The notes under the pieces were generated by a model, which made no database searches, was not told where the DNA came from, and saw only the letters and a list, made by a program, of their open reading frames with translations. Made by a program: the position numbers and the translations under genes. Below, in pieces: positions 26,085-64,000 of a stretch of DNA of 64,000 bases (the stretch's first letter is position 1; the number at the start of each line of letters is the position of its first letter). Origin of the DNA: Mya arenaria (lineage: Eukaryota > Mollusca > Bivalvia > Myida > Myidae); NCBI RefSeq assembly GCF_026914265.1, contig NC_069127.1, positions 19,523,045 to 19,587,044 on the forward strand, in the 5' to 3' direction.

Positions 26085-26592
26085 CCAAGCACTGTGATAC
26101 ATCTACACATAACTGTAGCAACGGCAATATACTTACACATTATTTTAGCAACGCTGACATGTCTAAACATTACCTAAGCAACGCTGACATTTTAACACAT
26201 TACCATAGCAACGGCGATATAATTACACATTGCCATATCAACGCTGACATTTATACACCTTACTTAAGCAACGGTGACATTTTTACACTTTACCATAGCA
26301 ACGGTGATAAACCAACACATTACCATAGCAAAAGTGACAACAGCATTGACATGTTTACGCATTTACATTCCAACGGCGATGTATCTACACATTGCCATAG
26401 CAACGGTGACATTTCTACACAATGCTTAAGCAACGGTGACATGTTTACACATAACCATAGCAACGGCGCAATATATATATATCACCATAACAATGGTGAC
26501 TGTCATAGAACGGTGATATTTCTATACATTACCATAGCAACTGTGACATATCTGGATATAACCATAACAACGGAAACACAATTATTTCCATA
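26085..26592. repeat. Array of about 15 imperfect 30-bp units containing X-box-like words
   Basis: Each unit is a variant of ACATTACCATAGCAACGGTG, followed by ACATTTCTAC or similar. The reverse complement of the core is CCGTTGCTATGGTAAT, and one unit gives GTTGCTATGGCAAT. This is close to the RFX X-box consensus (GTTNCCATGGNAAC). A shorter, more decayed array is at 42720-42910. The open frame at 26159-26692 comes from the repeat and is not a gene. Confidence 0.8.
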
Positions 26593-27649
26593 CCATTGTT
26601 TTAAATTGATGTTTTGTTTCTTTATAGAAATTTACTTAGGTAATAACCTACATTTCCAGCCAATGAAAGGCCTTACCACTCATATTCATTAAGAGTTGTA
26701 CTTTTACATCTAAATAGACATGACTTCATTAATAGGTTCTCTCCTGCTAAAAAGGTCATACCCTAAGACACTTACAACATATTATGTAAAATCTAAAAAA
26801 AGGAGCTCGGTTCGTTCACTCCGCCCTTTTTATTGCTAAGATTTTATTTTATTCATGTAAAAAAGTGTTGGCAATAGCAGTCGTTCAATTTTCGAATTGT
26901 CAAGAAAATCGAATTTAACAAATTAATTTGAAAACTTTAAACCTTTGAAGATTGGAACATCACTAAACCCATTTTACACATACATCTTAAACAGAAATTT
27001 AGAGTTCTCGCTTAAAATAAGCCAATCGCGCCAAGCATTTCAGCACACTAGTTTGGTTATGGGAGTATCTAAATGAATCGATTAACTATTGATGCCGTGA
27101 CGTCACACCTTACGATCTTTTTACCCTAGTTTAAGCCGATAAGAGAAGGCCTTAAATGTATTTCTTTTATTTCAACGCGTTGTGTTATTACAGTGAGTAT
27201 TATAGAAATGTTAATAAATTCTTAACTGTTACGTTGTGTTATAATTCCATATAGTTATTGGCCACAGCGGGCCAAATTTAAGTTATGGAATACTTGCTGA
27301 ACATTAAGCTTCTCTGTAAGTGTATTTTAATAAAGATATTATTTGAAATCAAGTTGCCATAAGCTCAAAGTAACATGCAAAATGCTTTGTTAGAAATGCA
27401 ATAATGTTAGGCAAGAGCATATTGTTTTAATTTCTAAATATCCATTGCTCCCGCCCATCGCCTAGAACAATGCCGGTAATGGCCGAATAGTTAAGATGCT
27501 GTTTGTCTGTAACATTGTTACTTTTCACGAGCAAATAATCGAATCTTTTCAACTGCTAATCGTTAGGGTAGTTCACTATAAAAGAGGCTATCCGGAGATT
27601 GCCGGAGATAGCCGAGTAGTTACGAATGGTTGACCTTTGAGCTGTTCTC
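26593..27649. repeat. Left part of the amplified block (no gene)
   Basis: About 26650-27300 matches 42990-43760, and in part 57040-57260, with shared words such as CATTAAGAGTTGTA, GAACATATTAGGTAGAATCT-like and AGGTCAAGAAAATCGAA. About 27445-27650 matches 35060-35260 (GAACAATGCCGG, GGCCGAATAGTTAA, TGGTTGACCTTTGA). This is the sequence 3' of a transporter copy read on the minus strand. Confidence 0.6.
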
Positions 27650-28318
27650 ATTAACAATCGCTGTAAAACCAACATTGATACTCCGACTAGTTTAACGTTG
27701 CCAGAAGGTTCGGCAATATTTCCACATCTTTTGTATGTTTCTTGTTTCTTTCACAGTCACAGAATGCGGAAAGTCCCATCACAAATGAACTTGCAATCAT
27801 GGAAATGCCCGCGAAAGCTTTTCACGTTATCCAATCGACATTTTGTAACAGTCTATTACAAAAGGCATTGTCATTAAATTCATTAGTCAATATGATACCG
27901 CACAAGTACGTATTATTGTATGGTCACCATTGTGCACTTATGCCTCGTGGGTCTACGACCTTCTGGTTTATTATAAATAAAACGTGAAACTTGAAACTTA
28001 TCATCCTGAAAATACAATGTAAAACAAGGTGTAACATGACTCAGGTGTACAATGTATAAACATATATCGGGAAGTATATTGTAATTTAGGACCTTTTTTA
28101 GAATTTGTCAATGAAAATATCCCGGCTATCCCTGTAATTGAGAGAAGAAAGGCGGCCCTTTGTGGAGTCACGTGATGCTCTATGGCTAGCGGCGGGAGCA
28201 GAACGGTGGCGGGGGAATGGCCGCATGTCGCCAACACGATTGTGGCGAGGGAGTGCCACTTGCAGAACCACTGCTTAAGGATGACGATTGACGGCGTGAA
28301 CGCCAACGACCTACCGAT
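27650..28318 (-). pseudogene. Decayed SLC16-type transporter copy 1
   Basis: Read on the minus strand, 28318-28244 matches the start of transporter exon 4 (donor-side intron, then VGVHAVNRHP-type sequence). 28240-28110 matches GHSPATV-LPPLAIEHHVTP and RAAFLLSITGIA further along the same exon, with the middle deleted. 27825-27650 matches the last exon (FAGISM-ASSFVMGLSA). About 27830-28005 is foreign sequence ending ATAAAACGTGAAACTTGAAA, like the 3' end of a non-LTR element, and it splits the last exon. Exons 1-3 are absent. The intact relative is at 50739-55686. Confidence 0.75.
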
Positions 28319-30547
28319 ACCTGTCAGTGTAAAGAAACAACATTGGCATTAATAGTAGAAAGTTTTGAAATTGATTTGTATCAGAAAGTGTCATTGCTTT
28401 GGCTCATGTTTTGTCGGAATTTTTGTAGAATGGTCAGAGGTGTGGAATAACTGTTGCGATGAGCCATAGAGCATCACGTGACTCCACAAAGGAGTCTCAT
28501 AGGTTTTGAAACTTTTCTAAAACTCTCTCTATCATTTAAAAATTTGAAACGATATCATTCAGTTACAGATATATTTTTGCATGAGTCAGGTAGACATACT
28601 TTGCATATTCTGCTAATAAATACGCCTTAAGGCTTTGATATCAGGGACCGGTTTTCTTTTGTGTTCTCCCATGCATTTAGAAATGCTATAGCGGAAGGGT
28701 AGTCTCCACATGGCGGGCAATCATTGGAGCCATAACATTTTGTTGTGTTGAAAATGGTCCAACGCGTTTTCCGTTATAGTGCCAATGAGTGCAATATGGA
28801 TGTAAACTATGAGTATGGTTTCTTTATTTTCATTTCTAGAGGTTTATACTAGTAAATTAAAAACAAAATGGAGAGTGTAGTTCCACATAGGATTGGCTAA
28901 GAGTTGTGCTAAATTTAAATGTTCTGAATAAAATTTAAAATCTGATCGTCTAGAACTTGCATAACTTGCTAGAGGTTAGTATTGACAACGTTAAAATATG
29001 ATGCATTCACCAGTATCCTTATATGCATGTAGTTCACGCATGTTACGGCTTGAAGGATTAAAGGTTATTTTCGAGAAACATGCACAAGTATTTCTGTCAA
29101 CAGATACTCTGGAGTGGTTGCTGACACAACTTCTACGGGTATGTGTACTTGTAACCTTCCTCGTGTATAACGTTACCCAGGTTTGTACACATGTCGACAT
29201 TCGGAGCTCCTCGTCCATTTTATATCGAAACAACCTCGGATGTATGCTGGTAGATCAGTAGAAGTAGTTCGTATTTTTTGAATTATATCATTAAATAAAT
29301 GTAGTGTTTTAGCTTGTATTGATATAAGTTAAAATTAATTTTGAAGTGTATTATCGCAAACATTATTAAGATTCCAAAGAGTTAGGTCATTTATTGTAAG
29401 TGCTAAATTAAATTACTACGCGATTTACTTGCAGCGGACTTTAAAAGACCCGATTTCTGATATTAAAAACAGTCCATACACATCCGAGGTTGTTTTCGAT
29501 AAAAAATGGCCGGTGAGTTCCAATGACTTGTCGAATTTCTTGTACGTAGCATGAGGGGATTGATCCACGTGCCTTTAACTTCGAAATGAATCGACAAGCT
29601 AGTGTTAAACATTATTTGGAGGTACATGCGCACGTACACGTGGTGTTTCGCAACCTCCCTGTGTGTCGAATATTTGCGTACATTCACAGTGGACATTTAA
29701 GCAGAACTTTCGATTTTCTCTCTTCTTACGGATTGAAAGGCACATTTTCTGATAGTTTGCTTACGTATTTTTGTATGCGTATATATATGTTTACTTCAAG
29801 AAACGACAATAACGTTCCAAAATTGTTGGACTAGAGCGTCTTTCTTCTAAAACGCAACGCCGTGGATTTATTCGCGGCGATAGGTGATGTGCACTGAATG
29901 ACAATCGGTCATTGAATTTGTATACATATTTCATCAGCGCGTATTTCATCTTGACAAAATTAATATTTTGTAAACCAAAATTAAATGAGTCGTTTAACAT
30001 AAACACATACAAACTATGGATGGTTTATTAGTTTGATAAAAAGTAAAATCTTTGAATAATAAAATATAAGAAATATCAATTGAAAAAGTTTTGTATCAGG
30101 TAATTGTCGAGCGATCTACTCCCGAAGTCGATTTCTCGTCCAGGTTTGCCTTTAATGACGCTATAATTCTTAAGATTACATATTTGAGGTCATATTTTGG
30201 AACATGTAATAAAGATATTTCAAAATAGCAAATACAAAACAAACGCAGTTAATTAACATAAATAACATAAAACGGATTTCCCTGAAAGCCTGTCTATATA
30301 ATTGACACCTTAATTTATCACAAACTATCTTGTCAAAATAGTGTACGAGTTCAAGGACAGATTTTCGAATACAAACGATAAATTATATGTCATAAATTTT
30401 GTTCTCTTTAGACCATACGTTTTCTGTCTAGTAAAGGCGAAACCAAATCCCTGTTAACGTTAAGTGAGCATTCTGGTCAGGGAAAACTATGCTATTACTT
30501 ATCGCTTAATATTTCAATGTATTCAAGCCACGAATTTAAGCGGTTAT
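28319..30547. repeat. Amplified-block flank between transporter copy 1 and lyase copy D
   Basis: 28410-28450 holds a single copy, inverted, of the 41-bp unit that is tandemly amplified at 52459-54011. 28460-28492 is a short inverted fragment of transporter exon 4. About 28990-30010 matches the arm sequences at 59860-60800 (the TTCATGTAGTTCACGCATG block, CAAGCTAGTGTTA, AAAGGCACATTTTCTGATAG). A family 1 MITE is inserted at 29200-29522. 30060-30547 matches the 3' flank of the lyase genes. Confidence 0.65.
29200..29522. mobile_element. MITE-like element, family 1, second copy
   Basis: It has the same termini and interior as 380-710, including CAACCTCGGATGTATG and the inverted CATACACATCCGAGGTTG. 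It interrupts the amplified-block flank relative to the copies at 50100 and 60180, so it inserted after that block was duplicated. Confidence 0.75.
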
Positions 30548-31283
30548 GCTGTTCTGTCTGGATGGTGGCGAGACTGAAGTGAAGATGTCAAGGAGGACGT
30601 CCTCCACTGACTGGCTCTGGACGGCTCTTAACATTCGTCCCAGCCACGTGTCGATAGCCGGTTGCCCGCAGAAGAACGGAATGTCCAGCTATTTCCGAAA
30701 AGACTTGTACATTCGGCTTATACCTGAAGAAATAAAAATAAATATAATTACAATAAGTAAGATATGCTTATATATCCACGAGTGGTCGTTCTTCACCAAA
30801 AGAAATGTAATGTAAATATGTTATTATTGCTTAATACATGTATAACAAAATAATTTTATCGTTTAACGGTTATTGGTTTAAACCAACCGTTTTAAAATGA
30901 AAGAATGTGCAATTTTAAACTGTTACGCATCACAAATTTTAAAAATGCAGTATCAGTACCTTTCCCATGTATTTCGATGTATCCATTTCCCTGCATCCGT
31001 TTGTACACAACCATTTCCGCAACAGCCTTCGTCACCTTCCCGAGGCTTTCTTCAGGACCGCTATCCGTTCGTCGCACAGAAACATTACATCGTACCACTC
31101 TGTCTTCTCTAACAAATTGATGGCCTCCGGATACTGTTCCTGGAGCTTATCGGCCTCCTCCATGGCAAAACTCCGTAGGAGGCGGAGGTCCACGGCCTGG
31201 GCGGTCAGACAGACAGGTTATTCACCATCATCTGTACGGTCCCAACCGCCTCCGCCGTCAGCAGCGCTCTTACCAGTGTCATC
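30548..31283 (-). pseudogene. Decayed PAL-type lyase copy D
   Basis: The relic is read on the minus strand. 31283-30957 matches the last 110 codons of lyase exon 1 with frameshifts. 30727-30548 matches exon 2, where RMYNFIRKELD has become RMYKSFRK followed by a TAG stop (GGAAATAGCTGGAC for GGAAGGAGCTGGAC). Upstream it jumps straight to the lyase 5' flank at 31283, so most of exon 1 is missing. It shares the TAG with copy F. Confidence 0.85.
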
Positions 31284-32772
31284 GAGTTAAGCTAGTGTCG
31301 GATGCAATCGGCTCACTAATTGAGCGTTCAATGTAATTAACCTTAGCTTAGGAATGTTGTATTGCAAATGCCTTACTTCTTTTGATAGATCACTGTGGGC
31401 GTTCCGCCGATAGATTTACAGGGAGCCATTGAAATTGTTGAAACTAAGGAATAATATGAACAGAAAAGAACAGAACATATTAAATGTCTGTCAATGATGT
31501 GAAGTACGAAACAAACCTGCAGCATATTACACTAAGAAAGAGTAAATGCACATTAATTTATTTAATAATACATTTTAGAAGGTTTTATATCTCAGTCAAT
31601 CTTAAAACCTGCCCTCCACAGATGCAGCTTGAACATATGAGACAGCCCACAATGGTACAGTCAATAACCCCAGAAGGATGTGAACTCGATTGAAACAGAT
31701 TCGTTTATAATATTCTTACAGATCAACATACAAAACAAATACCAGTAAAACTAGGAAATAGATCGGCGAACCTTTGAACCAAAAAGCGATTGAAACGCGA
31801 AAACTGAAACGTTAAACCAGCACTGATTATTAGCTTATTATGTATAATAACAATGTACTCTTTTACGATTTATTTTCATGAGCTGTAAAGTGTAGATGTA
31901 AACTACAGACAGGCGAACAACTATTAACATGTATAGTGTGTTTTGCGATATAAATCAAAGCACTGGTAGTGATAATAGACTCGGGCAATGATCAGTAGTT
32001 TTATTAAAGCATGTGCAATCTGAATCATACAGCATGCTTAAGAAGGGATCTCCTTTAGCACTGTAAAAGTGTTACCATATTTCTCTTATGACTTCATGCT
32101 TCAACAGCTGGCGTTCTGCTCCGTAGTAATATTTATTGTCTGGTTGCAATAAGATCAGTTCACAGTTTCATTATTTTACTTTACTTCCATTGTTTGCCAA
32201 TGTTTATCATAATTTAGTGAGTTGTTTTGCATAAGAAATACACACATACATATGTTTTATTAGTTGGATAAACAATGAATGCTCAAACTTTTATGTATAT
32301 GCAGGAATCTGGTGAACAAAATTTAAAAATATCATTCTATAAATGTGAAAGTAGCTCAATCGAAAGCCAGAAGTTTTGTATCAGGTATTCGTCGATCGAC
32401 CTATCCTTGTCCAGGTTTGCCTTTAATGACGCTATAATTCTTAAAATAACCATACTTAAGGCACTATAACAGATCGAAAGCGTAAAATAAAGATATATCA
32501 AATAGCAAATACAAAAGAAAACACAGTTGATAAAAAATAACACCAAACGGATTTCCCTGAAATTTCTTATCTTGTTGACACCTTAATAATTTATCGCCAA
32601 TGAACTTGTGAATGTTGTCAAAATATTGTACGAGTTTAAAGACAGATTATCGAATAAACAGCGAAATCACATAATTGTTAATGTTTTGTGAGCTTTCAAG
32701 TCAGGGAAACATATGTTATTATATATCGCTTTATATTTTAAAGGTATTCAGTTCATTAATTTAAGCGGTTTG
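31284..32772. repeat. Lyase 5' flank of copy D and 3' flank of copy E
   Basis: 31284-32230 matches 39590-42060 (AAGCTAGTGTCGGA, ATCGGCGRACCTTTGAACC, AGACAGGCGAACAACTATTAAC, TTTTATTAAAGCATGT). 32330-32772 matches the sequence that follows the intact lyase genes (GCCTTTAATGACGCTATAATTCTTAA, CTTGTTGACACCTTAAT). No gene of its own. Confidence 0.7.
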
Positions 32773-33904
32773 GGCTGTTTTGTCTGGATGGTGGCTAGGC
32801 GGAAGTGAAGATGTCAAAGAGGACGTTCTCCACTGAGCGGCTCTGGACGGCTGTCAAAAGCCGTCTCAGCCAGGTGACGATGGCTGGTTGCCCGCAGTAG
32901 AACGGAATGTTCAGCTCCTTCCGAATAAAGTTGTACATTAGGCTTGTACCTGAAAAAATAAAGAAATAAATAATAAACATATGTAAGCTATGCTTAGATC
33001 GTTACGAGTGGTCGTTTTTAGCACCATACAAAATAATGCAATAATCTTGTTTTTGCTTTATAAAACTATATAATTTTATCGTTTACCTGAAATTGGTTTA
33101 TACCAACCGTTTTTAAATGATATAATGCGCAATATTATACTGTTACGTATCACACATTTAAATGGGCAGTATCAGTACCTTTTCCATGTATTTCGATGCA
33201 TCCATTTCTTCGTTGCATGCCCGTTTGTAGATGTTTCGCATCCGTTCGTACACCACCATCTCAGCAGCAGCTTTCGTCATCTGCAAGAGACTTCCTTGAG
33301 AGCCGCTATCCGTTCGTCGCACAGGAACATAAGATCGTACCACTCTGTCTTCTCTAACAAATTGGTGGCCTCCGGGTACTGTTCCCAGAGCTTACCGGCT
33401 TCCTCCATGGCGAGAATCCGCAGGAGTCGAAGGTCCACGGCCTAGGCGGTCAGACACAACAGGTTAGTCACCATCATCTGTAAGATCTCAACCGCCTCCG
33501 TCTTCAGCCGCGCGCTTACCAGTGCCATCGAGTTAACGGACTGGTTGTGTGTCTCAGCGCTTATCACGTGGTTGCTCATGGGGTTCACGAAGTGGTCAAG
33601 CTCTGACATGTACGAAGCCATCGCTGTATCGCAGCCTTTGAATCCAAAATCCTAGATTCACATCACATCCGCTGAGATTCGGGGGTAGACCAAAGTTTAG
33701 TTTTACGTTTACCACTTCTTGAAACTGAGCAAGGAAAAGTTTTCCACTCACACCCATCACTTGTCTGGTCTGATCTATGGCGATTGTGGTGTTTGTGCGA
33801 TGGTCAATGATGGGGTTAACATTGACACTATTCAGCTCAATGGTGATACGCCTATAGACGTTCTTTAGAGTCTCGGCGACGGGCCCAAGCCACTGTGGCG
33901 AGCT
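32773..33904 (-). pseudogene. Decayed PAL-type lyase copy E
   Basis: The relic is read on the minus strand. 33904-33170 matches lyase exon 1 from LRSSPQW to SKYMGK, and 32950-32773 matches exon 2, which here keeps the GAG where D and F have TAG. It has a stop in place of Gln in the LTAQAVDL block, frameshifts, and loss of about 45 bp over the NFQGETMS block between two GCGATTG/GCAATTG words. Its 5' end is cut at 33904 next to a tRNA-like sequence. Confidence 0.85.
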
Positions 33905-33939
33905 AGATGCTTGGTCGGCAACCGGCTATGTCAGAACAA

Positions 33940-35230: not shown

Positions 35231-37250
35231 TTACGAGTGGTTGACCTTTGAACTGTTCTCATCAACAACCGCTGTAAAACCAAATTTGATTACTCCGACA
35301 AGTTTAACGCTGCCAGAAGGTTCGGCAAAGGTTTCCACATCTTTTGTAAGTTTCTCGTTTCGTTTACAGTCACAGAATGCGGATAGTCCCATCACAAATG
35401 AACTTGCAATCATGGAAATTCCAGCGAAATAAAATGCTGATTGATAGTTTTCCTAACGCTTCCCTAATCCACCTTGAAAATAAAATATAAAACAAGGTGT
35501 TACAATGCTTAGTTTTATAAAAGATATTGAGGAAAAAAAAAATGTAATTTAGGACTTCTTTTCTAGAATTTGTCAGTGAAAATAATATTTGCATACATTA
35601 ATTAAATACCAAAAATACATGTATGCATAACCTACATAAATAACTTTAATATTTCTGCACACAAACCTGCCATTGGTGGTCCCAGCAGAAACCCCAGCCC
35701 CTAGAAAAGGAGGGCCAGGCCGAATGAACTAGCTAGTTTGCCACTCCCCAGCAGATCTACCAGAATTACGGGGATGAGGGCATTGTAGGAACCCGCGAAG
35801 AGCCCAAATATCAGAGTAGGTTGCGAATTGCCAGCACTGGGTGGAAAACCCGCAAGTTAAATTTGCAATACCACAAATAAATATTGATACTATGTAAAGA
35901 TATATCCTATTATTTCGCAGTATATCGATATCACAGAGAAAACCGAAACCGAGCCGCCCTACAATGTCGGCTATCCCGGTAAATGAGAGAAGAAAGGCGG
36001 CCCTTTGTGGAGTCACGTGATACTCTATTGCTAGTGGCGGGAGCATTATGGTGGTGGGGGAATGGCCGCATGTCGCCAACATGACGGATATGCCGAAGCA
36101 AAGAAACAATGGTCTCTTCAACAGGGTGTAGTCCGGTCATTCGCGGAGCCTCTTCTGTACGAATGTCTAGTTTCCAGAGAATTGTTGGTAGCGGGCGTCA
36201 TTTGCCTTCTATCCCGGGTTGTCTCCTTTCTCACAATAATCACTCTCATTTCTAGTGTTTTTTTTTCAATTGCATTCTTTCTCTGGTTGGCTTCTTCATC
36301 ACAATAATCACTCTAATTTCTACTTTGTTAATTTGCGTTCTTTCTCTGCTTGGCTTCTTCATCACAATAATATCTCTCATTTCTGTTATGTTCATTTGCG
36401 TTCTTTCCCTGGAAGGCCTTTTCATCACAATAATCACTCTCATTTCTATTTTGTTCATTTGTGTTCTTTCTCTGCTTGGCTTTTTCGTCACAGTAAACAG
36501 TCCCAGTTTCAATAATGTTCATTTGCGCTCTTTCCCTAGGTTGTCTCCTTCATCACAACAATCACTCTCATTTCTAATTTGTTCATTTGCGTTCTTTCAC
36601 TGCATGTCTTGTTTATCACAATAAGCACTCTATTTTCTACTTTGTGCATTGGCGTTCTTTAATTGGTTGGCTACTTCATCACAATAATTACTCTCATTTC
36701 TTCTTTGTTCAATTGTTACAGGTTCATTAGCAATATATACCCTTTGCCCTTTCCTTATCCTTATCAATTGTGAATGCACTTTTGCCATTAGGCACATCTC
36801 TTATTAATAACCCACAAATACTGATTTTCACCATTTTACCCGCCATTATTAACATTGTGTATTTAAACTCAACATTTTGGAATAGCATTTCAAGGAGCGG
36901 TGCAAACGCGAAGCTGCCAATACCACGGCGGAGAACCCACGTGACTTATTGGTCAAGTGCACGGCAACAAATGTCAACAAGTCTCGATTCAGGTAAGGTT
37001 TTTAAAGATAACTTTCTTAATACTTGGAGAATTTTTGTGAAATAAAGACCATAAACCCCACACTTAAGAGCTATATCAACGGTTATAAAGAACTTTTCTT
37101 ATATCCTTAAGTTTTCCTGAAAATCTTGACCAACTGATTTCTCGGAGTTAAAATTTCAGGCAAAGTACAACGGCTTTTGACAAATCTATCGCTTTATTTC
37201 ATGTAGATGGACGGCGTATACGCCAGCGACTTACCGATACCCGTGAGTGT
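35231..37250 (-). pseudogene. Decayed SLC16-type transporter copy 2
   Basis: The relic is read on the minus strand. 37250-37205 matches the start of exon 4, followed by a rearranged stretch. 36930-36720 matches the FEFKYTM-IMAG and DKERA blocks. 36720-36145 holds at least seven units of the 63-bp intracellular-loop repeat. 36140-35700 matches RPLFLCFG to the end of exon 4 with a frameshift near 35815. 35445-35231 matches the last exon (ASSFVMGLSAFCDCKR to VDENSSKVN). Exons 1-3 are absent. This copy has more loop repeats than the intact gene, although it cannot encode a full protein. Confidence 0.8.
36145..36720 (-). repeat. Expanded 63-bp loop repeat in transporter copy 2
   Basis: At least seven imperfect 63-bp units (TTTGCGTTCTTTCTCTGCTT, GGCTTCTTCATCACAATAAT, ...) are the reverse complement of the units coding NEQxRxESDYCDEQDxQRK at 54391-54705. 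The unit number differs from the intact gene (five), showing that this array changes length. Confidence 0.8.
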
Positions 37251-38199
37251 ACAGAAACAACATTTACATCAACATGAGTGTGTCGAATATTTGCGTACAT
37301 TCACACTGGACATTAAATTTAACTTTCGTTTTTTTCTCTTCTTACTGGTTATAAGACACATTTTCTGATATTTTCTCTGGACGTATTCTTTGTACGACTA
37401 TGTTTACTTCAAGAAACGATGATTACATTCCACAGTTGTTACAAAAGAGCACAGTTCTATAGCGTAACGTCGTTCATTTATTCGCGGAGATAGGCGATGT
37501 GCACTGACTGACAATCGATCATTTTGTATACATATTTCATCTTGACAAATGAAAAAAAATAATTTAGTAAACCAAAACTTAATGAGTTGTTTTACATCAA
37601 CAAAAACACACGTACACACTTTAGATGTTTTATTAGTTGGATAAACATTAAAAGCTATAAATAATAAATTATAAATGTACAAATATCTGGTAAATAAAAT
37701 TGAAAATTATCATTCAATAAATGCCAAATTAGTTCAATTGAAAATGCCTGAAGTTTCGTTTTAGGTAATTGTCGAGGGATCTACTCTCCAAGTTGATATC
37801 TTGTCCAGGTTTGCCTTTAATGACACTATAATGCTTAAAATAACCATACTTGCGGTCACAGTATTTGATGACACACTATAACAGATCGAAATTATGTAAT
37901 AGCAAATACAAAACAAACGTAGTCAATTAACATAAATAACACCAAACGGATTTCCATGAAAGCCAGTCTATCTTGTTGACACCTTAATTTATCGCCAACT
38001 AACTTGTCAAAATATTGTACGAGTTTAACGACAGATTTTCGAATAAAAACGATTAAACATATGTTACATAGTTTGTCCTCTTTAGGTCATAAGTTCTCTG
38101 TCTAGTAAAAGCGAAACCATATAATTGTTAAGGTTTATTGAGCATTCTGGTCAGGGAAACATATGCTATAACATATCGCTCAATATTTTACAGCGGTTT
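37251..38199. repeat. Amplified-block flank between transporter copy 2 and lyase copy F
   Basis: It matches 57260-58080 almost along its length (TTTACTTCAAGAAACGA, GCGGAGATAGGCGATGT, TCTCCAAGTTGATATCTTGTCCA), and 29770-30540 and 60700-61470 more distantly. No gene is seen. Confidence 0.75.
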
Positions 38200-40429: not shown

Positions 40430-40505
<76 letters not shown>

Positions 40506-46210: not shown

Positions 46211-46720
46211 GTATGTAAGGTTTACTGGAAAAAAATATTTTACACATTTATCTTTATTATAATTTTAAATATTTAAGGATTCTATTTCCTAAATAACTTT
46301 CAAGGATTTTTTTTTTCTTTTCATGATGTCGTTTGTATTTGACGTAATTGCATTACTGCAAAAAGTGTGGAATTTAATAAATACATTTAATTTAATTTCG
46401 TGGAAAAATTACAGAGGCAAAACAGTAACCTTAAATGAATAGAAATTTAATAGATATGAGTTAAACTGACGCAAACAACCTTCGAACATTTTTGATTTCC
46501 TGTCGGATTCTTTTCAACTTTTTAACCAGATTTCGAATATTCCACACTCGCGGTACGTATACACACCGTTTTTATTAACACAAAGATATAATAAATAGTT
46601 TTTCTCTTCAATTTTATATATATATACATGAAAGTTCATTTTAAATGTTTTTATATTACTAGATCATAGTATCGTATAATTACATGCACATTTATGTATT
46701 TCTTTAGACTACCAAGAAAA

Positions 46721-50738: not shown

Positions 50739-53700
50739 ATGTGTGTGCAATCGGACGCGGCGAATAACACAGAGTGCCAGTGCACTGGATCTCCCGAACA
50801 GAACGATGCCACAGAGCGCAGCCGAATTAGTCCTTCCGCTCCGGAAGATGGCACCGAGGGCAGCCGAATTAGTTCTACCGCTCCAGACAATGCCACAGAG
50901 CGCAGCCGAATTAGTCCTACCGCTCCGGACGATGTCACCGAGCGCCATCAATTCGGTCCTCCCGCTCATGACAGTACAAAGCGCAAACGAATTGGTCCTC
51001 CCACTCCCGATGGAACCATGAAGCTTCGCTGTGTTGGTCCTTCCGCTCCGGACGGCGGCTGGGGCTGGGTGATTGTTATATGTAAGTTATGTGTATTAAT
51101 TGGTCACATGATTAATGACTGAAAAAAATAATCTTCATTTTAATCGGTATACGAAACATCGTCTTCGTTATTTTTTGGCCAGATCTTCAATATTTTTAGT
51201 AGCTTAACTTGCATGCTTGGATTTTTCAATACATTTTGGAAAATTTGCAATACAATTTGGTCTCAATTATCGCTTTGGTCATTGTATTGGGGACGCAAAT
51301 TTCCAGGAGTAATTCTTGCATTCTTTTGAATACTTTTTTCTATTCGAAATGAATCAGAACATCTTAACCGTGTTCGACTTAATTGTTAACTAAATGTTTT
51401 CAATTTCCAGCAATTCTAAGACAAATAAGACTTATTTTTTCACAGGCGCAACAGTGCTGAACTTTCTGATCGGCGGAGCAGTCAACAGCTTTGGTGTGAT
51501 ATACGTAGAGCTGCTCGACGTGTTTCAGGAGAGCTCCGGAAAAACAGCCTGGGTCGGCTCCATGGCAAACGCCATGGGACTGCTGTTAGGTACACTTGAA
51601 AAATAATTGGGGAATTTTCAATAGATTGCGAAGATTATTGTATAAATATATGCTAAAAATCATGCTGGTGTCCATTTTGGGTGTTGACCACTCAAATACT
51701 CCATCGATCGTGGACACGAGGATCTCTTAAAATAGAGACGGACACATGATCGTAGTATTTATTGACAAAAAACGCCATTGCGCTAATTTAATGATTTTCG
51801 TTTTGTTTCCATGATGCCTATTTCTACATTAACAACATAAATTATTTCTAACACAGGTCCGGTGTCGAGTGCCTTGAGTTCTCGGTTCTCCTGCCGGACG
51901 ATGGTGGTCGTCGGCGGCGTTTTGACGGCGGCCGGCTGGGCACTGACTGGTCTTATGCCGAGACTGGAATATATGTTTCTTACATACGGCTTACTAGCTG
52001 GTTAGTCGATGTTTTCATAATCTCCAAAATTTATTCATTGTCTCCATTCTGGTTTAATTTTATTAGTTTTATAAAGGTTTTCAATTTTTTATAACGGCTC
52101 CCACTATGTGGAGAGAATAGACATTATATGTCTTACTACAATGCAATCAGATTTCAAATGTGTTTTTACGCACATTCTAGTAACTACACCCACAAGCCGA
52201 GTTATTGATATTACACACGAGGGCTTAACGAGTGTATATTTTGAAACCGAGGGTATTGCATTAAATAATGCATAGCAGAACACAACGAAAACACTGTAGT
52301 GCAGTCCCTGTTATCACAGATTATAAGCGTATTTCAATATTGCCATAATTAGCAGAAATTCCAAGTATGCCTAGAAATCATTTCACCTAGCTCAAGCATA
52401 AATATAACTGTACTGGAATACTATCGTTTAAAAACTAGGGAAATTGTCAATCGAAACTGTTATGCCACATTTCTGACCATTCTACAAACATTCCGACCTG
52501 TTATGCCACACCTCTGACCAGTTTACATACATTTCGACCTGTTATGCCACACCTCTGACCAGTCTACATACATTCCGACCTGTTATGCCACACCTCTGAC
52601 CATTCTACATACATTCCGACCTGTTATACGACACCTCTGACCATTCTACATACATCCCGACCTGTTATGCCACATCTCTGACCATTCTAAATACATCCCG
52701 ACCTGTTATGCCACACCTCTGACCAGTCTACATACATTCCGACACGTTATGCCACACCTCTGACCATTCTACATACATCCCGACCTGTAATGCCGCACCT
52801 CTGACCAGTTTACATACATTTCGACCTGTTATGCCACACCTCTGACCAGTCTACATACATTCCGACCTGTTATGCCACACCTCTGATCAGTCTACATACA
52901 TCCCGACCTGTTATGCCACATCTCTGACCATTCTACATACATTTCGACCTGTTATGCCATACCTCTGACCATTCTACATACATTTCGACATGTAATGCCA
53001 CACCTCTGACCATTCTACATACATCCCGACCTGTTATGCCACACCTCTGACCATTCTACATACATTCCGACCTGTTATGCCACACCTCTGACCATTCTAC
53101 ATACATCCCGACCTGTTATGCCACACCTCTGACCATTCTACATACATTCCGACCTGTTATGCCACACCTCTGACCATTCTACATACATTCCGACCTGTTA
53201 TGCCACACCTCTGAACATTCTACATACATTCAGACCTGTCTGACCATTCTACATACATTCAGACCTGTAATGCCACACTTCTGACCATTTTATATACATT
53301 CCGACCTGAAATGACACACCTCTGACCATTCTACATACATTCCGACATGTAAAACCCTGTAATGCCACACTTTTGACCATTCTTTATACATTCCGACCTG
53401 TAATGCCACACCTCTGACCATTCTACATACATTCCGACCTGTTATGCCACACCTCTGACCATTCTACATACATTCAGGCCTGTTATTCCACATCTCGGAC
53501 CATTCTACATACATTCAGGCCTGTTATGCCACATCTCTGACCATTCTATATACATTCCGATCTGTTATGCCACACCTCTGACCATTCTACATACATTCCG
53601 ACCTGTTATGCCACACCTCTGACCATTCTACATACATTCCGACCTGTTATGCCACACCTCTGACCATTCTACATACATTCCGACCTGTTATGCCACACCT

Positions 53701-55686
53701 CTGACCATTCTACATACATTCCGACCTGTTATGCCACACCTCTGACCATTCTACATACATTCCGACCTGTTATGCCACACCTCTGACCATTCTACATACA
53801 TTCCGACCTGTTATGCCACACCTCTGACCATTCTACATACATTCCGACCTGTAATGCCACACCTCTGACCATTCTACATACATTCCGACCTGTTATGCCA
53901 CACCTCTGACCATTCTACATACATCCCGACCTTTAATGCCACACCTCTGACCATTCTACATACATTTCGACCTGTTATGCCACACCTCTGACCATTCATA
54001 CATTCCGACACACATGACAGTATATTGTACAAAACAAGTTACTCCTATTGATGAAAATGTTGTTTCTTTACACTGACAGGTATCGGTAAATCGTTGGCGT
54101 ACACGCCGTCCATTGTCATCCTTGGGCAGTGGTTCCGCAGGCGGCATTCCCTCGCCACGGGTATCGCGGTCGCCGGCGCCGGTATTGGCACCTTCGCGTT
54201 TGCACCGGTCCTTGAGATGCTCTTCAAACATGTTGAGTTTAAATACACAATGTTTATAATGGCGGGTGTAATGGTGAATATCAGTATTTGTGGGTTGTTC
54301 TTCAGAGATGTGCCTAATGACAAGAGTGCGTTCACAATTGATGAGGATAAGGAAAGGGCAAATGATATATATTTCATTGAAACTGTTACAAATGAACAGA
54401 GTAGAACTGAGAGTGATTATTGTGATGAACAAGACATGCAGACAAAGAACGCAAATGAACAAAGTCGAAATGAGAGTGATACTTGTTATGAACAAGACAA
54501 GCAGAGAAAGATCACAAATGAACAATGTCGAAACGAGAGTGATTATTGTGATGAACAAGACATGCAGGGGAAAACCAGAAATGAACAATGTCGAAATGAG
54601 AGTGACTATTGTGATGAACAAGACAAGCAGAGAAAGATCACAAATGAACAATGTCGAAATGAGAGTGATTATTGTGATGAACAAGACATGCAGAGAAAGA
54701 ACGCAAATGACACCCGCTACGAACAAACCTCTGGAAACTCGACATTCGTACAGAATGGGTTCCGCGAATATTTGGACTACACCCTGTTGAAGAGACCATT
54801 GTTTCTTTGCTTCGGTGTATCCGTCATGTTGGCGACTTGCGGCCATTCCCCCGCCACCGTAATGCTCCCGCCTCTAGCCATAGAGCATCATGTGACTCCA
54901 CAAAGGGCCGCCTTTCTTCTCTCAATTACCGGAATAGCCGACATTGTAGGGCGGCTCGCTTTTGGTTTCCTCTGTGATATCGATATACTGCGAAATAATA
55001 GGAAATATCTTTACATGGCATCTATATTCATCAGCGGTATTGCAAATATAACTTGCGGGTTTTCCACCCAGTACTGGCAATTCGCAACCTACTCTGTGAT
55101 ATTTGGGCTCTTCGCGGGTTCCTACAACGCCCTCACTCCCGTGATTCTGGTAGACCTGCTGGGGAGTGGCAAATTAGCCAGTTCATTCGGCCTAGCCCTC
55201 CTTTTCCAGGGGACGGGTTTTCTGCTCGGACCGCCAATGGCAGGTTTGTGTAACAGTTGAGCTATTTAAGTCGGTTTTGCATACATGTATGAAAATGAAT
55301 TGGGTATTTTTGGTATTTAATTTATAATTGCAAATATTCTTTTCATTGAAAATATCTATAAAAGAAGTCCTAAATTATAATATTTCTTCTTCAATATCTT
55401 TTATAAAACTTAGTGTTGTAACACCGTGTTTTACATTATATTTTCAGGGTGGATAAGAGACGCGTTAGGAAACTATCAATCAGCATTTCATTTTGCGGGC
55501 ATTTCCATGCTTGCAAGTTCATTTGTGATGGGACTTTCCGCATTATGTGACTGTAAAAGAAGGAAGAAACATACAAAAGATGTGGAAATATTTTCCGAGC
55601 CCTCTGGCAATGTTCAACTTGTCGGAGTATTCAATGTTGGTTTTACAGCAGTTGTTGATGAGAACAGTTCAAAGGTCAACCAGTAA
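50739..55686 (+). CDS. SLC16/monocarboxylate-transporter-type MFS protein (complete, five coding exons)
   Basis: Exons 50739-51081, 51446-51589, 51857-52000, 54080-55243 and 55448-55686 join, all introns in phase 1, to 677 residues. After a cytosolic N-terminus of six 14-residue repeats (about 25-107, type TERSRISPTAPDDA) comes the family signature DGGWGW (105-110) at the first membrane segment. TWELVE hydrophobic segments can be counted, with QWFRRRHSLATGIAVAGAG (about 227-245) matching the second family motif. The large loop between segments 6 and 7 carries five exact 21-residue repeats (315-419, type NEQSRNESDYCDEQDMQRK). The C-terminus is short. SLC16 members move lactate-like monocarboxylates with protons, and one branch moves aromatic amino acids; the subfamily cannot be set by eye. 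It lies 1.9 kb downstream of lyase A on the same strand and is co-duplicated with it. Intron 3 contains a large minisatellite. Confidence 0.9.
52459..54011. repeat. 41-bp minisatellite, about 38 units, in transporter intron 3
   Basis: The unit TGTTATGCCACACCTCTGAC plus CATTCTACATACATTCCGACC is repeated about 38 times with scattered substitutions (CATCCC, CAGTCT, TTCAGA variants) and a few truncated units. It ends 68 bp before the exon 4 acceptor. A single diverged unit stands at the matching place in the decayed copy near 28410-28450, so the array grew from one ancestral unit. Confidence 0.95.
54391..54705 (+). repeat. Five 63-bp coding repeats in the transporter loop
   Basis: Five in-frame 21-codon units, rich in Asn, Glu, Gln, Arg, Asp and Cys, lie in the predicted intracellular loop between membrane segments 6 and 7. 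SLC16 proteins have their longest loop here, but repeats are not a family feature. The decayed copy at 36145-36720 has more units. Confidence 0.92.
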
Positions 55687-55919: not shown

Positions 55920-56770
55920 ACTTTTTTTCATCCAGTAGTCGATGAATGTAAGTTATAGAAGATTGTAACTCACCAATGATTGTATTTCCATACTATAAAC
56001 GTCAAACTATAATTACATTATTAGCTGGTTTGTCAGCAATAATTTCAACCCCTTCTCATTTATACCACCTTTTACAATATTTAGATAAAGTCTCTGTCAA
56101 TTCTTATTTACACGTATGGAAATTAATTTCAGATCCTATCCGATATTTCGGACCTTTATTTAGCAGTTTTCTTAGGAGATTATTTTTAATAAACGTAAAA
56201 TCCCCAGTAACAATATGTCCAAAAGCGTCGTAACGATACACATACTCAATACAATCTCACGAAGAAGGTGTATTTCCAGAAATGTCATCTTCTGCCATTA
56301 CTTTGTTATAGTTAAATATGCAATTTCGAATAGGCCTTTTAAATTTATAACATATTATTGGCACTTCTTTATTTTTTAAGTATTGCAGAATGCATTTTTT
56401 CTAGATTTTATTCTTGAATAAACCATTTAAATTGACAATGTCTATACCCTTGTTGATAAAAGAAAGTTTAATACGATCTTAACATTATCAATAGTAGGAT
56501 GGAGGTAATGTTTAGTATAACCATTAACAATACAAGCGCATTCATAATTTGGATCATCTGTTCTCAAAATGATTTTTTCCGCTTCCTTATCCAGTAAGCG
56601 TAAAGAATTAACGGAAGTAGAAAGAAGTCGATGTTTACCATTAAGTAACAGAATATTATTACACTGTTCGAAATCAATTGTTCGACGTTGTTTTCGATTT
56701 ATGTTTCCATTAATCCTCTTACCATGTGATCTTGTCTTACACTTTCTAACTTTAAATAATAAACAAATAT
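55920..56770 (-). pseudogene. Decayed mobile-element-type coding sequence
   Basis: The relic is read on the minus strand. About 56750-56455 is open and codes a charged stretch (RINGNINRKQRRTIDFEQ, then YECACIVNGYTKHYLHPTID). Further along, with stops, come GHIVTGDFTFIKNNLLRKLL, KGPKYRIGSEINF and ADKPANN, then YIHRLLDEK. The GD-x-KN-LR, KGPKYR and DKxANN blocks resemble those next to reverse transcriptase in large repetitive elements that I associate with aquatic invertebrate genomes. I cannot name the family. Several stops show it is dead. It fills part of the spacer between the transporter and the right arm. Confidence 0.5.
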
Positions 56771-58080
56771 AAATATTACTACTTTTTAATATATTACTTA
56801 CATTAAATATGCAATCATTAATTCAAGGCGGATATGGAGTTTTCAAGCGTTTAACCCAGTCAAGAGCTGCGGTGCATCTTGCCTTGAATTTATAGGAATT
56901 ACTTACTTTATCTGTAAATAATAAATATTCTACTGGATGAATGGCAAATTTATCCTAACTATGTCGCTCTTATAAATATGATGAAACTTTGAAGGAGTTA
57001 TTACTATTTTTGATTTTATAAACATGTTCTCAAAACATGACATGTGATGCTCTAAAGACGTATTAGGTAGAATCTTTATAACTAAATAAGAGTTCGGATT
57101 GTTTGCTGTGCCGTTCTTTATCGTAAAGAGTTTACCATATATGTTCTTACTAAGGACTATAGCGGCCGTTCAATTTTTGAAACGTCAAGAAAATCGAAAT
57201 GTAATAAATTTATTTCATTACTATCGTATACTGAGATAGTTTTAAACCTATAACATTGGACCACATTTTCTGATATTTTCTCTGACGTATTATTTGTATG
57301 CCTATGTTTACTTCAAGAAACGACGATTGCATTTCAAATTTTTTACAAAAGAGCACATTTCTATAGCGTAACGTTGTTCATTTATTCGCGGAGATAGGCG
57401 ATGTACACTGAATGACAATCGATCATTTTGTATACATATTTCATCTTGACAAATGCAATATTAATATGTTGTAAACCAAAACTTAATGAGTTGTTTTACA
57501 TAAAACAACACACATACACACTTTAGATGTTTTATTAGTTAGATAAACAGTTAAAGTTATAAATAATAAATTATAAATGTACAAATATCTGATAAAAAGA
57601 ATTGAAAATTATCATTCAATAAATACGAAATTAGTTCAATTGAATATGCCTGAAGTTTTGTTTTAGGTAATTGTCGAGCGATCTACTCTCCAAGTTGATA
57701 TCTTGTCCATGCTTGCCTTTAATGATGCTATAATGCTTAAAACAGCCACACTTTTGGTCACAGTATTTGATGACACACTATAACAGATCGAAATTATGTA
57801 ATAGCAAAAACAAAACAAACGCAGTTAATTAACATAAATAACACCAAACGGATTTCCATGAAAGTCAGTCTAACTTGTTGACACCTTAATTTATCACCAA
57901 CTAACATTGTACGAGTTTAATGACAGATTTTCGAATAAAAACGATTAAACATATGTGACATAGTTTGTTCTCTTCAGGTCGTAAGTTTTCTGTCTAGTAA
58001 AAGCGAAACCACATAATTGTAAAGGTTTAGTGAGCATTCAGGTCAGGGAAACCTATGCTATTACATATCGCTCAATATTT
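56771..58080. repeat. Amplified-block flank upstream of lyase copy C
   Basis: 57040-57245 matches 43105-43320, and 57250-58080 matches 37330-38190. No transporter exons lie between these, so the transporter part of this unit has been lost. Confidence 0.7.
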
Positions 58081-58942
58081 TAAGTTGTTCATTCGGCTTT
58101 TACCTGAACAAATTAAAAATTATATAATTAGCATAAGTAAGATATGCTTATATCTTCACGAGTGGTCGTTTATCATCAAACAAAATGTAATGTTATTATG
58201 GTGTAATTGCTTTATAAAACTGTATAATTTTAGAGTTTAACGGTAATTGGTTTATAGCAATTGTTTTGAAATGATAGAATGTGCAATATCAAACTGTTAC
58301 GTATCACAAATTTTAAATGGGCAGTATTAGTACGTTTTCCCATGTATTTCGATGCATACATTTCTCCGTAACATGCCAGTTTATAGAGGTTTCGCATCCG
58401 TTCGTACATAACCATTTCCGCAGCAGCCTTCGTCCCCTGCATTCCTGATGCTTCCTTGAAAGCCGCTATCCGTTCGTCGCACAGGAACATAAAATCGTAC
58501 CACTCCGTCTTCTCTAACAAATTGGTGGCCCCAGGGTACTGTTCCCAAAGATTATCGGCCTCCTCCATGGCGAGATACCTCAGAAGTCGGAGGTCCACGG
58601 CCTGGGCGGTCAGACACAACAGGTCAGACACCATCATCAGTACGATCTCTACCGCCTCCGCCGTCAGCCGCGCGCTTACCAATGCCATCGAATTAACTGA
58701 CTGGTTGTGTGTCTCAGCGCTTATCACGTGGTTGCTCATGGGGTTCACAAAGTGGTCAAGCTCCGACATGTACGAAGCCATCGCTATATCGCTGCCTTTG
58801 AGTCCAAAGTCGAGATTAATATCACATCCGCTGAGATTCGGGGATAGTCCAAAGTTAAAATTTACGTCTACAACTTCTTGAAACTGAGCAAGGAGCAGTT
58901 TCCCACATACACCCATCAATTGTCTGGTCTGATCAATGGCGA
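58081..58942 (-). pseudogene. Decayed PAL-type lyase copy C
   Basis: The relic is read on the minus strand. 58940-58340 is an open frame matching exon 1 from QTRQVMGVCGKL to ASKYMGK with many replacements (e.g. NGKLNFGL to DVNFNFGL), still with the HNQSVNS and NHVISAET blocks. Exon 2 is almost wholly deleted: only the acceptor side (58085-58110, matching AAGCCGAATG) remains. At 58942 the sequence turns into an inverted lyase fragment. Confidence 0.88.
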
Positions 58943-58943
58943 T

Positions 58944-59090
58944 TGGCCCGTCGCCGAGACTCTTGTAGACGCCTTAAGGCGTATCAACTTTGAGCTGAAT
59001 AGTACCAATGATAACCCCAACATAGACCATCGCAAAAACACAATTGCCCACGGAGCAAATTACCAAGGGGAGACCATGTCAATCGCCATA
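58944..59090 (+). pseudogene. Inverted lyase fragment fused head-to-head to copy C
   Basis: On the plus strand this matches lyase codons for SVAETLVDA-RRI to GETMSIA (compare 47672-47815), i.e. the part of exon 1 that should continue copy C but in the opposite orientation. It ends at 59090, exactly where the right arm of the large inverted repeat begins. Confidence 0.85.
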
Positions 59091-59200
59091 TTGAAGATCT
59101 GACCAAAAAATAACGAAGACGATGTTTTGTATACCGATTAAAATGAAGATTTGTTTTCAGTCATTTATCATGTGACCAATTAATACACATAACTTACATA

Positions 59201-59543
59201 TAACAATTACCCAGCCCCAGCCGCCGTCCGGAGCGGAAGGACCAACACAGCGAAGCTTCATGGTTCCATCGGGAGTGGGAGGACCAATTCGTTTGCGCTT
59301 TGTTGTACTGTCATGAGCGGGAGGACCGAATCGATGGCGCTCGGTGCCATCGTCCGGAGCGGTAGGACTAATTCGGCTGCGCTCTGTGGCATTGTCTGGA
59401 GCGGTAGGACTAATTCGGCTGCGCTCGGTGCCATCGTCCGAAGCGGTAGGACTAATTCGGCTGCGCTCTGTAGCATCGTTCTGTTCGGGAGATCCAGTGC
59501 ACTGGCACTCTGTGTTATTCGCCGCGTCGGATTGCACACACAT
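59201..59543 (-). pseudogene. Orphan transporter exon 1 (copy 3)
   Basis: On the minus strand an ATG frame codes the 14-residue repeats and the DGGWGWVIVI signature and ends at the same GTAAGT donor as in the intact gene. The exon is undamaged (one extra Thr codon), but the arm ends 110 bp beyond it and no exon 2 follows, so no transporter can be made from this locus. Confidence 0.88.
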
Positions 59544-59557
59544 AACCAGTTCTTAAA

Positions 59558-61469: not shown

Positions 61470-63581
61470 TTAAGCGGTTTGGCTGTTCTGTCTGGATGGT
61501 GGCGAGACAGAAGTAAAAATGTCAAGGAGGACGTTCTCCACTGAGCGGCTCTGTATGGCTTGTAAAATTCGTCCCAGCCACGTGTCGATAGCCGGTTGCC
61601 CGCAGTAGAACGGAATGTCCAGCTCCTTCCGAATAAAGTTGTACATTCGGCTAGTACCTGAAGAAATAAAACAAATATAATTACCATAAGTAAGGTATGC
61701 TAATTTCTTCACAAGTGTTCGATTATCATCAAACAAAATAATGTATTTTATGCTGTTGTTACTTTAATTACTATATAATTTTATCGTTTAACGGCAATAG
61801 GTTGATACGATCCGTTTGAAAATGATACAATGCGCAATATTAAACCATAACAGGTATCACAAATTAAACTGGACAGTATTAGTACCTTTTCCCATGTATT
61901 TCGATGCATCCATTTCTCCGTTACATGCCCGTTTGTAGAGGTTTCGCATCCGTTCATACACAACCATTTCCGCAGCAGCCTTCGTCCCCTGCATTCCCGA
62001 GGCTTCCTTGAGAGCCGCTATCCGTTCGTCGCACATGAACATAAGATCGTACCACTCCGTCTTCTCTAACAGATTGGTGGCCTCCGGGTACTGTTCCCGG
62101 AGCTTATCGGCCTCCTCCATGGCGAGATTCCTTAGGAGCCGTAGGTCCACGGCCTGGGCGGTCAGACATAACAGGTTAGTCACCATCATCTGTACGATCT
62201 CAACCGCCTCCGCCGTCAGCCGCGCGCTTACCAATGCCATCGAATTAACAGACTGGTTGTGTGTCTCAGCGCTTATCACGTGGTTGCTCATGGGGTTCAC
62301 AAAGTGGTCGAGCTCCGACATGTACGAAGCCATCGCTGTATCGCAGCCTTTGAATCCAAAGTCGAGATTTATATCACATCCGCTGAGATTTGGAGGTAGT
62401 CCAAAGTTCAGTTTTCCGTTCACAACTTCTTGAAATTGAGCTAGGAGCAGTTTCCCACACACACCCATCACTTGTCTGGTCTGATCCATGGCGATTGACA
62501 TGGTTTCTCCTTGGAAATTTGCTCCGTGGGCAATTGTGTTTGTTCGATGGTCAATGATGGGGTTATCATTGGCACTATTCAGCTCAATGGTGATACGCCT
62601 ACAAGCATCGACAAGAGTCTCGGCGACGGACCCAAGCCACTGTGGCGAGCTCCTCAGACTGTATCTGTCCTGCTTCAGGACGCCATACTTGTCTGGAAGA
62701 TGCATGTCTAGAGTGGTAATCGCCAACTGGCTGTCTTCAAGTACGCGTAGCATATTGCGAGCGATTTCCTTTTGGCCGAGATGTGGTAGGCACTCATGAA
62801 TCAGAGGGTGAAAACTTTCCGTTCTCCCGTGAAGAGCTTCCACTGACATTCCTGTGCACACTTGAGTTAGGAGTAGCATAAGATTGGCGTCATACAGAGT
62901 TGGCGCGGAAACACCCGCAGCGAATGAATCCGCATTGATAATAGCCAGTCCTTCTTTAGGCCCCAGGGTAATTGGCGTAATTCGGACCGCTTCGAGCGCT
63001 TTAGGACACGTTGTTTGAACTCCAGCGTGGACGACCTGTAAATCCGCACGGCCAATCATAGCCGCTGCGATGTAACCAAGAGGCATCAGGTCCCCGCTGG
63101 CGCTCACCGAGCCTCTTAGTGGGACTCGGGGCGTTATGTCGTGATTTATCAACTCCACCAGCACCTGGGGCACGTCAGGCCGCACGCCGGAGTATCCTTT
63201 CGCCAGACAGTTCGCACGCGTCACCATGGCAGCGCGTGTCAAATGCACGGGAAATACTCGACCCATTCCAGCATTCACGTGCCGAATTAAGGCTGTTTGT
63301 ACATCATCTAATTTACATGACCTTACTTCTGCGCTCCCGCCAAAACCTGTATTTATACCGTACACAATAAGCCCTTCGTCCAATTTCTCTTTAAGGTATT
63401 TTTGGTTTGAAACCATTTCATTTAAAGCGTCCTCGGCCAGAACGACCTTGACCCCGCTGTCGGCACTAAGGCCGAGAACCTCGGGTATAGAGAGTTGTCT
63501 CCCGTTTAAGATCACCGTGTCCTTGATCTTTCTACGCTCCTGTATCATGGCCAGCGTGGTCTTTACGTGACTTTCCGACAT
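61470..63581 (-). CDS. PAL-type aromatic amino acid ammonia-lyase, gene B (intact, two coding exons)
   Basis: Exons 63581-61886 and 61657-61470 (minus strand) join in phase 1 to 627 residues. It has the same MIO triad (Ala161-Ser162-Gly163), Tyr74, selectivity pair His101-Val102 and full-length C-terminus as gene A. Differences from A over exon 1 include Lys54Asn, Ile56Met, Val268Leu, Asp282Glu, Ser491Ala, Glu522Ala, Ile539Met and Val543Glu; none touches the motifs named for gene A. Residues at 522, 539 and 543 in B agree with the decayed copies C and F, so A carries the newer changes. There is no linked intact transporter on this side, only exon 1. Regulation is unknown; the leader intron acceptor CTTTAG precedes the ATG as in A. 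Confidence 0.92.
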
Positions 63582-64000
63582 TTTTCTTGGTAGTCTAAAG
63601 AAATATATAAATGTGCATGTAATTATATGGCACTACAATTTATTAATATGAAAACATTTAAAATGAACTTTCATTCTCAAGTCGCGATGATTCTCGAACT
63701 TGAAAACGTCTATATGTAATCTTTGTCATGGGGATCAAAAAGAATTGAAAATATGTACTATTATATTTTTAAATTAAAACGGTATGTATATACGTACCGC
63801 GAGTGTGGAATATTCAAAATCTGGTTTAAAATGTTGAAACAAATGAGAACGGTATTAAAAATGTTCGAAGATATTTTTAATTAGCTTAAGTTATATCTTT
63901 TAAATTTCTATTCCTTAACGGTTTTTGCTTTTGTAATTTTTTTACGATATGAAATTCTCGTATATAAATACAATTACACACCTTTTGCAGTAAGTCAATG
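63582..64000 (-). promoter_or_regulatory. Leader intron of lyase gene B
   Basis: It matches 46440-46720 inverted: the CTTTAGACTACCAAGAAAA acceptor region, AAAGTTCATTTTAAATG and ACTCGCGGTACGTAT. The leader exon and TATA region of gene B should lie just beyond the window. Confidence 0.5.

Follow-up and report, generated by a model that had tools for sequence, protein, structure and literature searches.

We analysed a 64,000-nt stretch of the genome of the bivalve Mya arenaria (contig NC_069127.1, here C6, positions 19,523,045 to 19,587,044; hereafter the window), in which a gene for an ammonia-lyase and a gene for an SLC16-type transporter lie next to each other in several copies. We put at about 75% the probability that these copies form a segmental-duplication array of a phenylalanine ammonia-lyase (PAL)-type lyase, predicted from its residue His101 to favour tyrosine, and an SLC16-family carrier. 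The pair and its repetition, which extends past the window, were confirmed. The most promising findings are the presence in an animal of three PAL-type lyase genes under constraint, each encoding His at the residue that selects for tyrosine, and of a paralogue encoding Phe there.

The repeated lyase–transporter pair

Copies were mapped by tblastn over 204 kb, with coordinates above 64,000 continuing those of the window along C6 (loci L093–L102). Twelve lyase and nine transporter copies were found between 27.6 and 119.9 kb, a span of about 92 kb; the array ends at approximately coordinate 119,855, and over half of it lies outside the window. Six lyases (C1, C2, B, A, E, and D) and four transporters are within the window, and six lyases (U5, U6, U7, U8, U9, and U10) and five transporters are beyond it (Table 1). 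Transporter sequence was present downstream on the same strand for nine of the 12 lyases (C1, B, A, D, U5, U6, U8, U9, and U10), with the order of lyase, then transporter, in every copy having transporter sequence. No transporter sequence was found by tblastn after lyases C2, E, and U7.

An earlier note on this DNA had described a PAL/tyrosine ammonia-lyase (TAL)-class lyase beside an SLC16-type carrier, recurring as four units, and this description was borne out. Spliced models recovered the intact unit placed at 46.7–55.7 kb, in which the stop codon of lyase A and the ATG of transporter A, said to be about 1.9 kb apart, are separated by 1,909 bp. The decayed units at 27.6–31.3 and 35.2–39.2 kb correspond to lyase and transporter C1 and to lyase and transporter B, respectively. 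The partial unit at 59.1–63.6 kb is also real: its lyase (D) is intact and its transporter is cut to exon 1, with homology to transporter A ending within intron 1 at position 59088 (self-BLAST and exon mapping). Two transporter-less lyase fragments, C2 and E with its adjoining scrap, had been overlooked. The claim that the genes share a strand holds within each unit but not across units, as A is on the forward strand and the others in the window are on the reverse strand.

Most copies are damaged. Open frames with good splice sites are found in lyases A, D, and U8; of the rest, U6 is interrupted by a stop at codon 139, U9 is frameshifted, and seven are partial. The only intact transporter among the nine is A. 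The exons of transporter U6 are open, with the exon-2 donor and the exon-5 acceptor lost; D and U8 retain exon 1 only, that of U8 holding a stop; and the remaining five are frameshifted or partial. One of the 12 lyases thus adjoins an intact transporter, and the intact lyases D and U8 are followed by transporter exon 1 only. The two genes are non-homologous and physically linked, as those of a metabolic cluster would be.

A single transcript covering both genes was considered and judged unlikely: an AATAAA lies 538–572 bases past the lyase stop in A, D, U6, and U8, and a common transcript is therefore not indicated.

In the whole assembly (1.216 Gb, 18 contigs), a search with PF00221, in which all 28 candidates were scored, yielded 19 matches, all of them in the array or in one multi-exon gene on contig C14, so the clustering in the array is not due to chance. 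The C14 gene was hit in several exons by bacterial histidine ammonia-lyase (HAL; among the results listed, for two of seven HAL queries) and carries motifs that we take to be HAL-like. It shares the PF00221 superfamily with the array lyase, which did not find it as a query at E 1e-3. A search for the transporter listed 88 matches (66 of 934 candidates scored); among the matches listed, all with at least 52% identity were in the array, and those outside it had 22–42%, the best by score having 36%.

Table 1. Positions of the array copies and associated features (window coordinates unless a contig is named)
Feature	Position	Strand	State or basis
Lyase A, intact, 627 aa	46721-48829 (exons 46721-48416, 48642-48829)	+	Open frame, GT/AG sites, PF00221, 4-methylideneimidazol-5-one (MIO) triad
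Transporter A (SLC16/MCT-like), intact, 677 aa, 5 coding exons	50739-55686	+	Spliced model; PDB matches
Transporter A exons	50739-51081, 51446-51589, 51857-52000, 54080-55243, 55448-55686	+	AG/GT sites
Lyase D, intact, 627 aa, inverted copy of A	61470-63581	-	Nonsynonymous divergence (Ka) 0.0056, synonymous divergence (Ks) 0.079 vs A
Transporter D, exon 1 only	59198-59543	-	Self-BLAST, exon mapping
Lyase fragment E, residues 363-568	58326-58943	-	tblastn
Inverted lyase scrap beside E, residues 319-365	58950-59090	+	tblastn
Lyase B, 3' part	38192-39252	-	Frameshifts, in-frame stops
Transporter B, exons 4-5, decayed	35237-36924	-	Frameshifts, stops
Lyase C2, 3' part, decayed	32774-33904	-	
Lyase C1, 3' part, decayed	30539-31291	-	
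Transporter C1, remnants of exons 4 and 5	27626-28327	-	
Left arm of inverted duplication (lyase and transporter exon 1)	45934-51193	+	Self-BLAST
41-bp minisatellite, 38 copies, transporter intron 3	52457-54009	+	Tandem Repeats Finder
Lyase U9, decayed	109601-107911 (L097:3911-5601)	-	Phe-Met selectivity pair
Multi-exon gene like histidine ammonia-lyase	C14:5583359-5589187 (L103, L104)		Other PF00221 locus found

Predicted functions of the lyase and the transporter

Profile and structure comparisons support the lyase as a PAL/TAL-class aromatic amino-acid ammonia-lyase. The main exon of lyase A matched PF00221 with 458 bits (E 3.5e-137, profile positions 2–449 of 466), and the reading frames at 46670–48445 (forward) and 61857–63632 (reverse) scored 458 bits each. 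The best of eight NCBIfam models was that of phenylalanine ammonia-lyase, TIGR01226 (512.4 bits). Two HAL models reached 305 and 297.5 bits, the latter below the hutH cut-off of 539.15, and two bacterial tyrosine lyase models reached 270 and 257 bits, placing the array lyase far nearer to eukaryotic PAL than to these bacterial TAL models. The 39 PDB sequence matches comprised, in order, Taxus and plant PAL, yeast PAL, cyanobacterial PAL, and then HAL, tyrosine aminomutase (TAM), and TAL. Identity to the Taxus PAL/phenylalanine aminomutase (PAM) chain was 43%. The structure predicted for the main frame (568 aa) from 21 sequences had a mean predicted local distance difference test score of 76 and a predicted template modelling score of 0.79, with residues 501–568 poor. 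Its best Foldseek match was to Taxus (E 3.3e-32), followed by matches that included parsley, sorghum, yeast, and Anabaena PAL; the best 50 of the 90 matches with E <=0.001 were all PAL or PAM.

The array lyase has in common with eukaryotic PAL and phenylalanine/tyrosine ammonia-lyase (TIGR01226, PF00221) the Ala-Ser-Gly of the MIO group, active-site residues, and the fold. It differs from eukaryotic PAL in its animal host, in a His-Val selectivity pair, and in scoring just below the PAL model cut-off. It is also shorter (627 aa vs 696–742 aa in PDB chains), and TIGR01226 and plant PAL chains align to it only up to residue ~487. The C-terminal 152 residues had three PDB matches: two yeast PAL (E 0.33) and one uncharacterised chain (E 0.86). 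The match to the yeast PAL C-terminus is weak but colinear and is only suggestive of a full PAL C-terminus.

The MIO triad A161-S162-G163 is present in all three intact lyases, which are also identical to the Taxus PAL/PAM chain at Y74, N216, Q304, Y307, R310, N340, F356, E439, and Q443. Apart from the Asn/Asn/Arg set, these conserved residues have the active-site roles usual for the class. Asn/Asn/Arg are described as carboxylate-binding in a section of a review (PMC9002059). At the aligned selectivity position, lyases A, D, U6, and U8 carry His101-Val102, the His being shared with bacterial TAL of the Rhodobacter sphaeroides type. According to passages in two papers, His89 of that TAL binds the tyrosine hydroxyl, and a His89Phe substitution shifts the enzyme to phenylalanine (PMC9002059, PMC8773403). 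As His101 is at this published Phe/Tyr selectivity position, tyrosine is the predicted substrate, and the intact lyases are predicted to favour its conversion to p-coumarate and ammonia. We infer catalysis, MIO formation, and the tyrosine preference from these residues.

The decayed lyase U9 has Phe-Met in place of His-Val. Its selectivity codons are TTT ATG, compared to CAC GTG in A, D, U6, and U8, so that four of six bases are changed, against 130 of 1,686 bases differing between A and U9 overall. Only two of 560 adjacent-codon pairs differ by at least four bases between A and U9, and the selectivity pair is one of them. Ka was 0.040 and Ks was 0.238 for this comparison, which indicates that U9 was mostly constrained. 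These data fit a possible shift in preferred substrate among the array lyases, in either direction. Two observations weigh against such a switch: the other four-change pair is codons 263–264, not a position of known role, and U9 is a broken copy in which the otherwise invariant Gly81 is replaced by Cys, so some of its changes may postdate its death.

The transporter is supported as a member of the SLC16 family, its sequence being related to monocarboxylate transporters (MCTs) over both halves. Twelve of its 14 PDB matches were to MCT2, MCT10, MCT1, and MCT8 (166–140 bits, two matched stretches each), and MCT2, MCT10, and MCT1 scored about equally on transporter A. The best of 15 models was TIGR00892, with 279 bits against a cut-off of 586.1. 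Transporter A has in common with MCT1/MCT2 and MCT10/MCT8 the PDGGWGW start and the Asp/Arg pair (Asp498/Arg502, corresponding to Asp309 and Arg313 of MCT1), and differs from them in a repeat-rich N-terminus and central loop. At the position of the MCT1/2 substrate lysine (Lys38 of MCT1), the MCT2 alignment places Asn128; Asn at this position makes transporter A like the MCT10 chain and unlike MCT1/2. Lys38, Asp309, and Arg313 are named as important MCT residues in part of a published paper (PMC13265630). With Lys replaced by Asn128, transporter A lacks the full residue set of the H+-coupled MCT1–4.

Two coding repeats were noted in the transporter gene. A 63-bp in-frame repeat in exon 4 (54388–54710, Tandem Repeats Finder) encodes a 21-residue repeat in the central loop, exon 4 being 1164 bp long in A and 1227 bp in U6, and a 42-bp repeat is present in exon 1.

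Growth of the array and selection on its copies

Self-comparison revealed both inverted and direct duplications. The inverted duplication pairs 45934–51193 with 64385–59088 (91.4% identity over 5,375 columns, self-BLAST), its right arm passing the window end. A tandem block with an offset of ~33.5 kb is 94–98% alike from 44.5 to 65.3 kb and 81–92% alike after that. In its second copy, fragment E and the inverted scrap recur as U7, and lyase D with its cut transporter recurs as U8; the breaks at E and D therefore predate the copying of the block. Since much of the array arose by recopying of one block, the copies are not independent events. The array would have grown as a local segmental duplication of two neighbours, a PAL-type MIO-dependent lyase and an SLC16-family carrier, through direct and inverted duplication of blocks of ~5 to ~33 kb that included the spacer and a neighbouring gene fragment. 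Both genes would have been copied because they were neighbours, and later decay of most copies would have left three lyases and one transporter intact in the stretch seen. A fragment of a SHIPPO (sperm-tail PG-rich) repeat gene occurs with the array blocks at 24784–25263 and 67349–67759 (L093:3349–3759).

Both genes are constrained by purifying selection. Compared pairwise over 626–627 codons, lyases A, D, U6, and U8 had Ka/Ks values of 0.07–0.14 and Ks values of 0.057–0.088 (six comparisons). For transporter A, Ka/Ks was 0.25 against U6 (560 codons, repeats excluded), 0.275 against U10 (364 codons), and 0.27 against U5 (442 codons). Lyases D and U8, neither with a full transporter in cis, had a Ka/Ks of 0.098 between them, indicating that a partner in cis is unnecessary for keeping the lyase.

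Several alternatives concern what the genes are and whether the copies exist. An aminomutase, converting alpha- to beta-tyrosine or -phenylalanine, would be in line with Taxus phenylalanine aminomutase/PAL chains being the top PDB matches in both sequence and fold; we consider it improbable because the PAL model, at 512.4 bits, outscored those of the Taxus mutase, with 394.5 bits and a cut-off of 1250, and of tyrosine mutase, with 250.9 bits and a cut-off of 501. That the multiplicity is an assembly artefact of unmerged haplotypes is less probable still. The two ~33-kb stretches adjoin and are closely alike in their first part, as such an artefact would be, but identity drops in the rest of the pair, the 12 lyases are 2.8–19.1% apart in the 3' region, their lesions differ, and inverted copies occur. 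Least credible of all is a recent bacterial contaminant or transfer. The lyase gene is intron-poor, and old PAL transfers from bacteria to fungi and plants are inferred in part of a review (PMC9002059). On the other hand, the gene has a spliced C-terminal exon and lies inside a contig that measures 83.6 Mb in a genome of 1.2 Gb, and the 43% identity of the lyase to the Taxus chain exceeds the 32–36% to 20 aligned bacterial proteins. These were taken from at least 80 loci found by an alignment-based scan of genome contigs, with identities of at most 36% among the matches listed; a scan of genome contigs with a single sequence found no relative, and a scan of viral contigs found none.

The remaining alternative concerns why the genes travel together. 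The earlier note had read the joint duplication as a sign of joint selection. This did not hold, as the blocks also carried the spacer and the SHIPPO fragment, and neighbours in a block are copied whatever they do. In a true two-gene metabolic cluster, the lyase would make p-coumarate or cinnamate, the carrier would import the aromatic amino acid or export the acid, and duplication would serve dosage. We regard this as a tentative possibility. Order and strand are the same in all nine copies with transporter sequence, both genes are constrained, and their close relatives were found only in the array (for the transporter, among the matches listed). The N-terminal half of the transporter scored 113 bits with MCT10 vs 93 with MCT2, albeit over a longer stretch, and MCT10 is an aromatic amino-acid carrier according to part of a paper (PMC11430032). 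Set against this, the C-terminal half favours MCT2 (81 vs 58 bits for MCT10), one of nine transporters is intact vs three of 12 lyases, the constrained lyases D and U8 lack a full cis partner, and three lyase copies have none. A functional link between lyase and transporter may exist. We hold as doubtful the more far-reaching proposal that an animal itself converts tyrosine to p-coumarate, with a carrier dedicated to this step and both genes in a cluster that duplicates, and that the lyase pocket switched within this cluster between a Phe-type (Phe-Met) and a Tyr-type (His-Val) form, after which the Phe-type copy died; if true, it would be an animal parallel of the plant and fungal entry into phenylpropanoids.

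Some results count against our preferred reading, the duplication of a tyrosine-favouring PAL-type lyase and its SLC16-family neighbour. The lyase narrowly missed the curated TIGR01226 cut-off of 519.15 bits, one assembly was examined, and the order of lyase and transporter persists in as many as nine of 12 copies. Ka/Ks was higher in two comparisons: 0.49 for transporter exon 5 between A and U9 (78 codons) and 0.30 between lyase A and fragment E (203 codons). Clean co-duplication of pairs was rejected: lyase and transporter distances over six units (A, U6, B, C1, U5, and U9, with U10 excluded and the badly aligning C1 transporter kept) gave a Mantel r of 0.50, with 10 of 720 permutations as high, and this agreement, being only partial, points to units that are mosaic, shuffled or converted. 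The usual TAL pair is His-Leu and not the His-Val found here. In addition, one bacterial TAL is described in part of a paper as carrying Tyr at the selectivity position (PMC8773403), which makes His101 a guide rather than proof.

PAL/TAL chemistry opens the route to phenylpropanoids and has been described mostly for plants, fungi, and bacteria; PAL-like names occur in mollusc databases. A literature search on ammonia-lyases in molluscs and invertebrates returned no paper on an animal PAL/TAL gene among the matches listed. One review, in the section concerned, assigns PAL to plants, fungi, and bacteria and HAL to vertebrates (PMC9002059), and a portion of a sea-cucumber review mentions PAL/TAL enzymes for plants only (PMC9410154). 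Intact PAL-type genes, a linked carrier, and paralogues differing at switch residues offer a test of enzyme retention and retuning, and the duplication map cautions that "copied together" is not "selected together".

Other features of the window

GC skew falls to -0.46 at the minisatellite in transporter intron 3. Just past transporter A, on the reverse strand, is a 126-aa frame (56442–56822) for which no Pfam match was found; it is 90% alike near U6 and broken near U5 and U9. No RNA families were detected at gathering score. A LINE-type element with endonuclease and reverse-transcriptase frames (PF03372, PF14529, PF00078) lies at 17076–19980 on the reverse strand, and a short minisatellite at 2880–3397 yields repeated reading frames.

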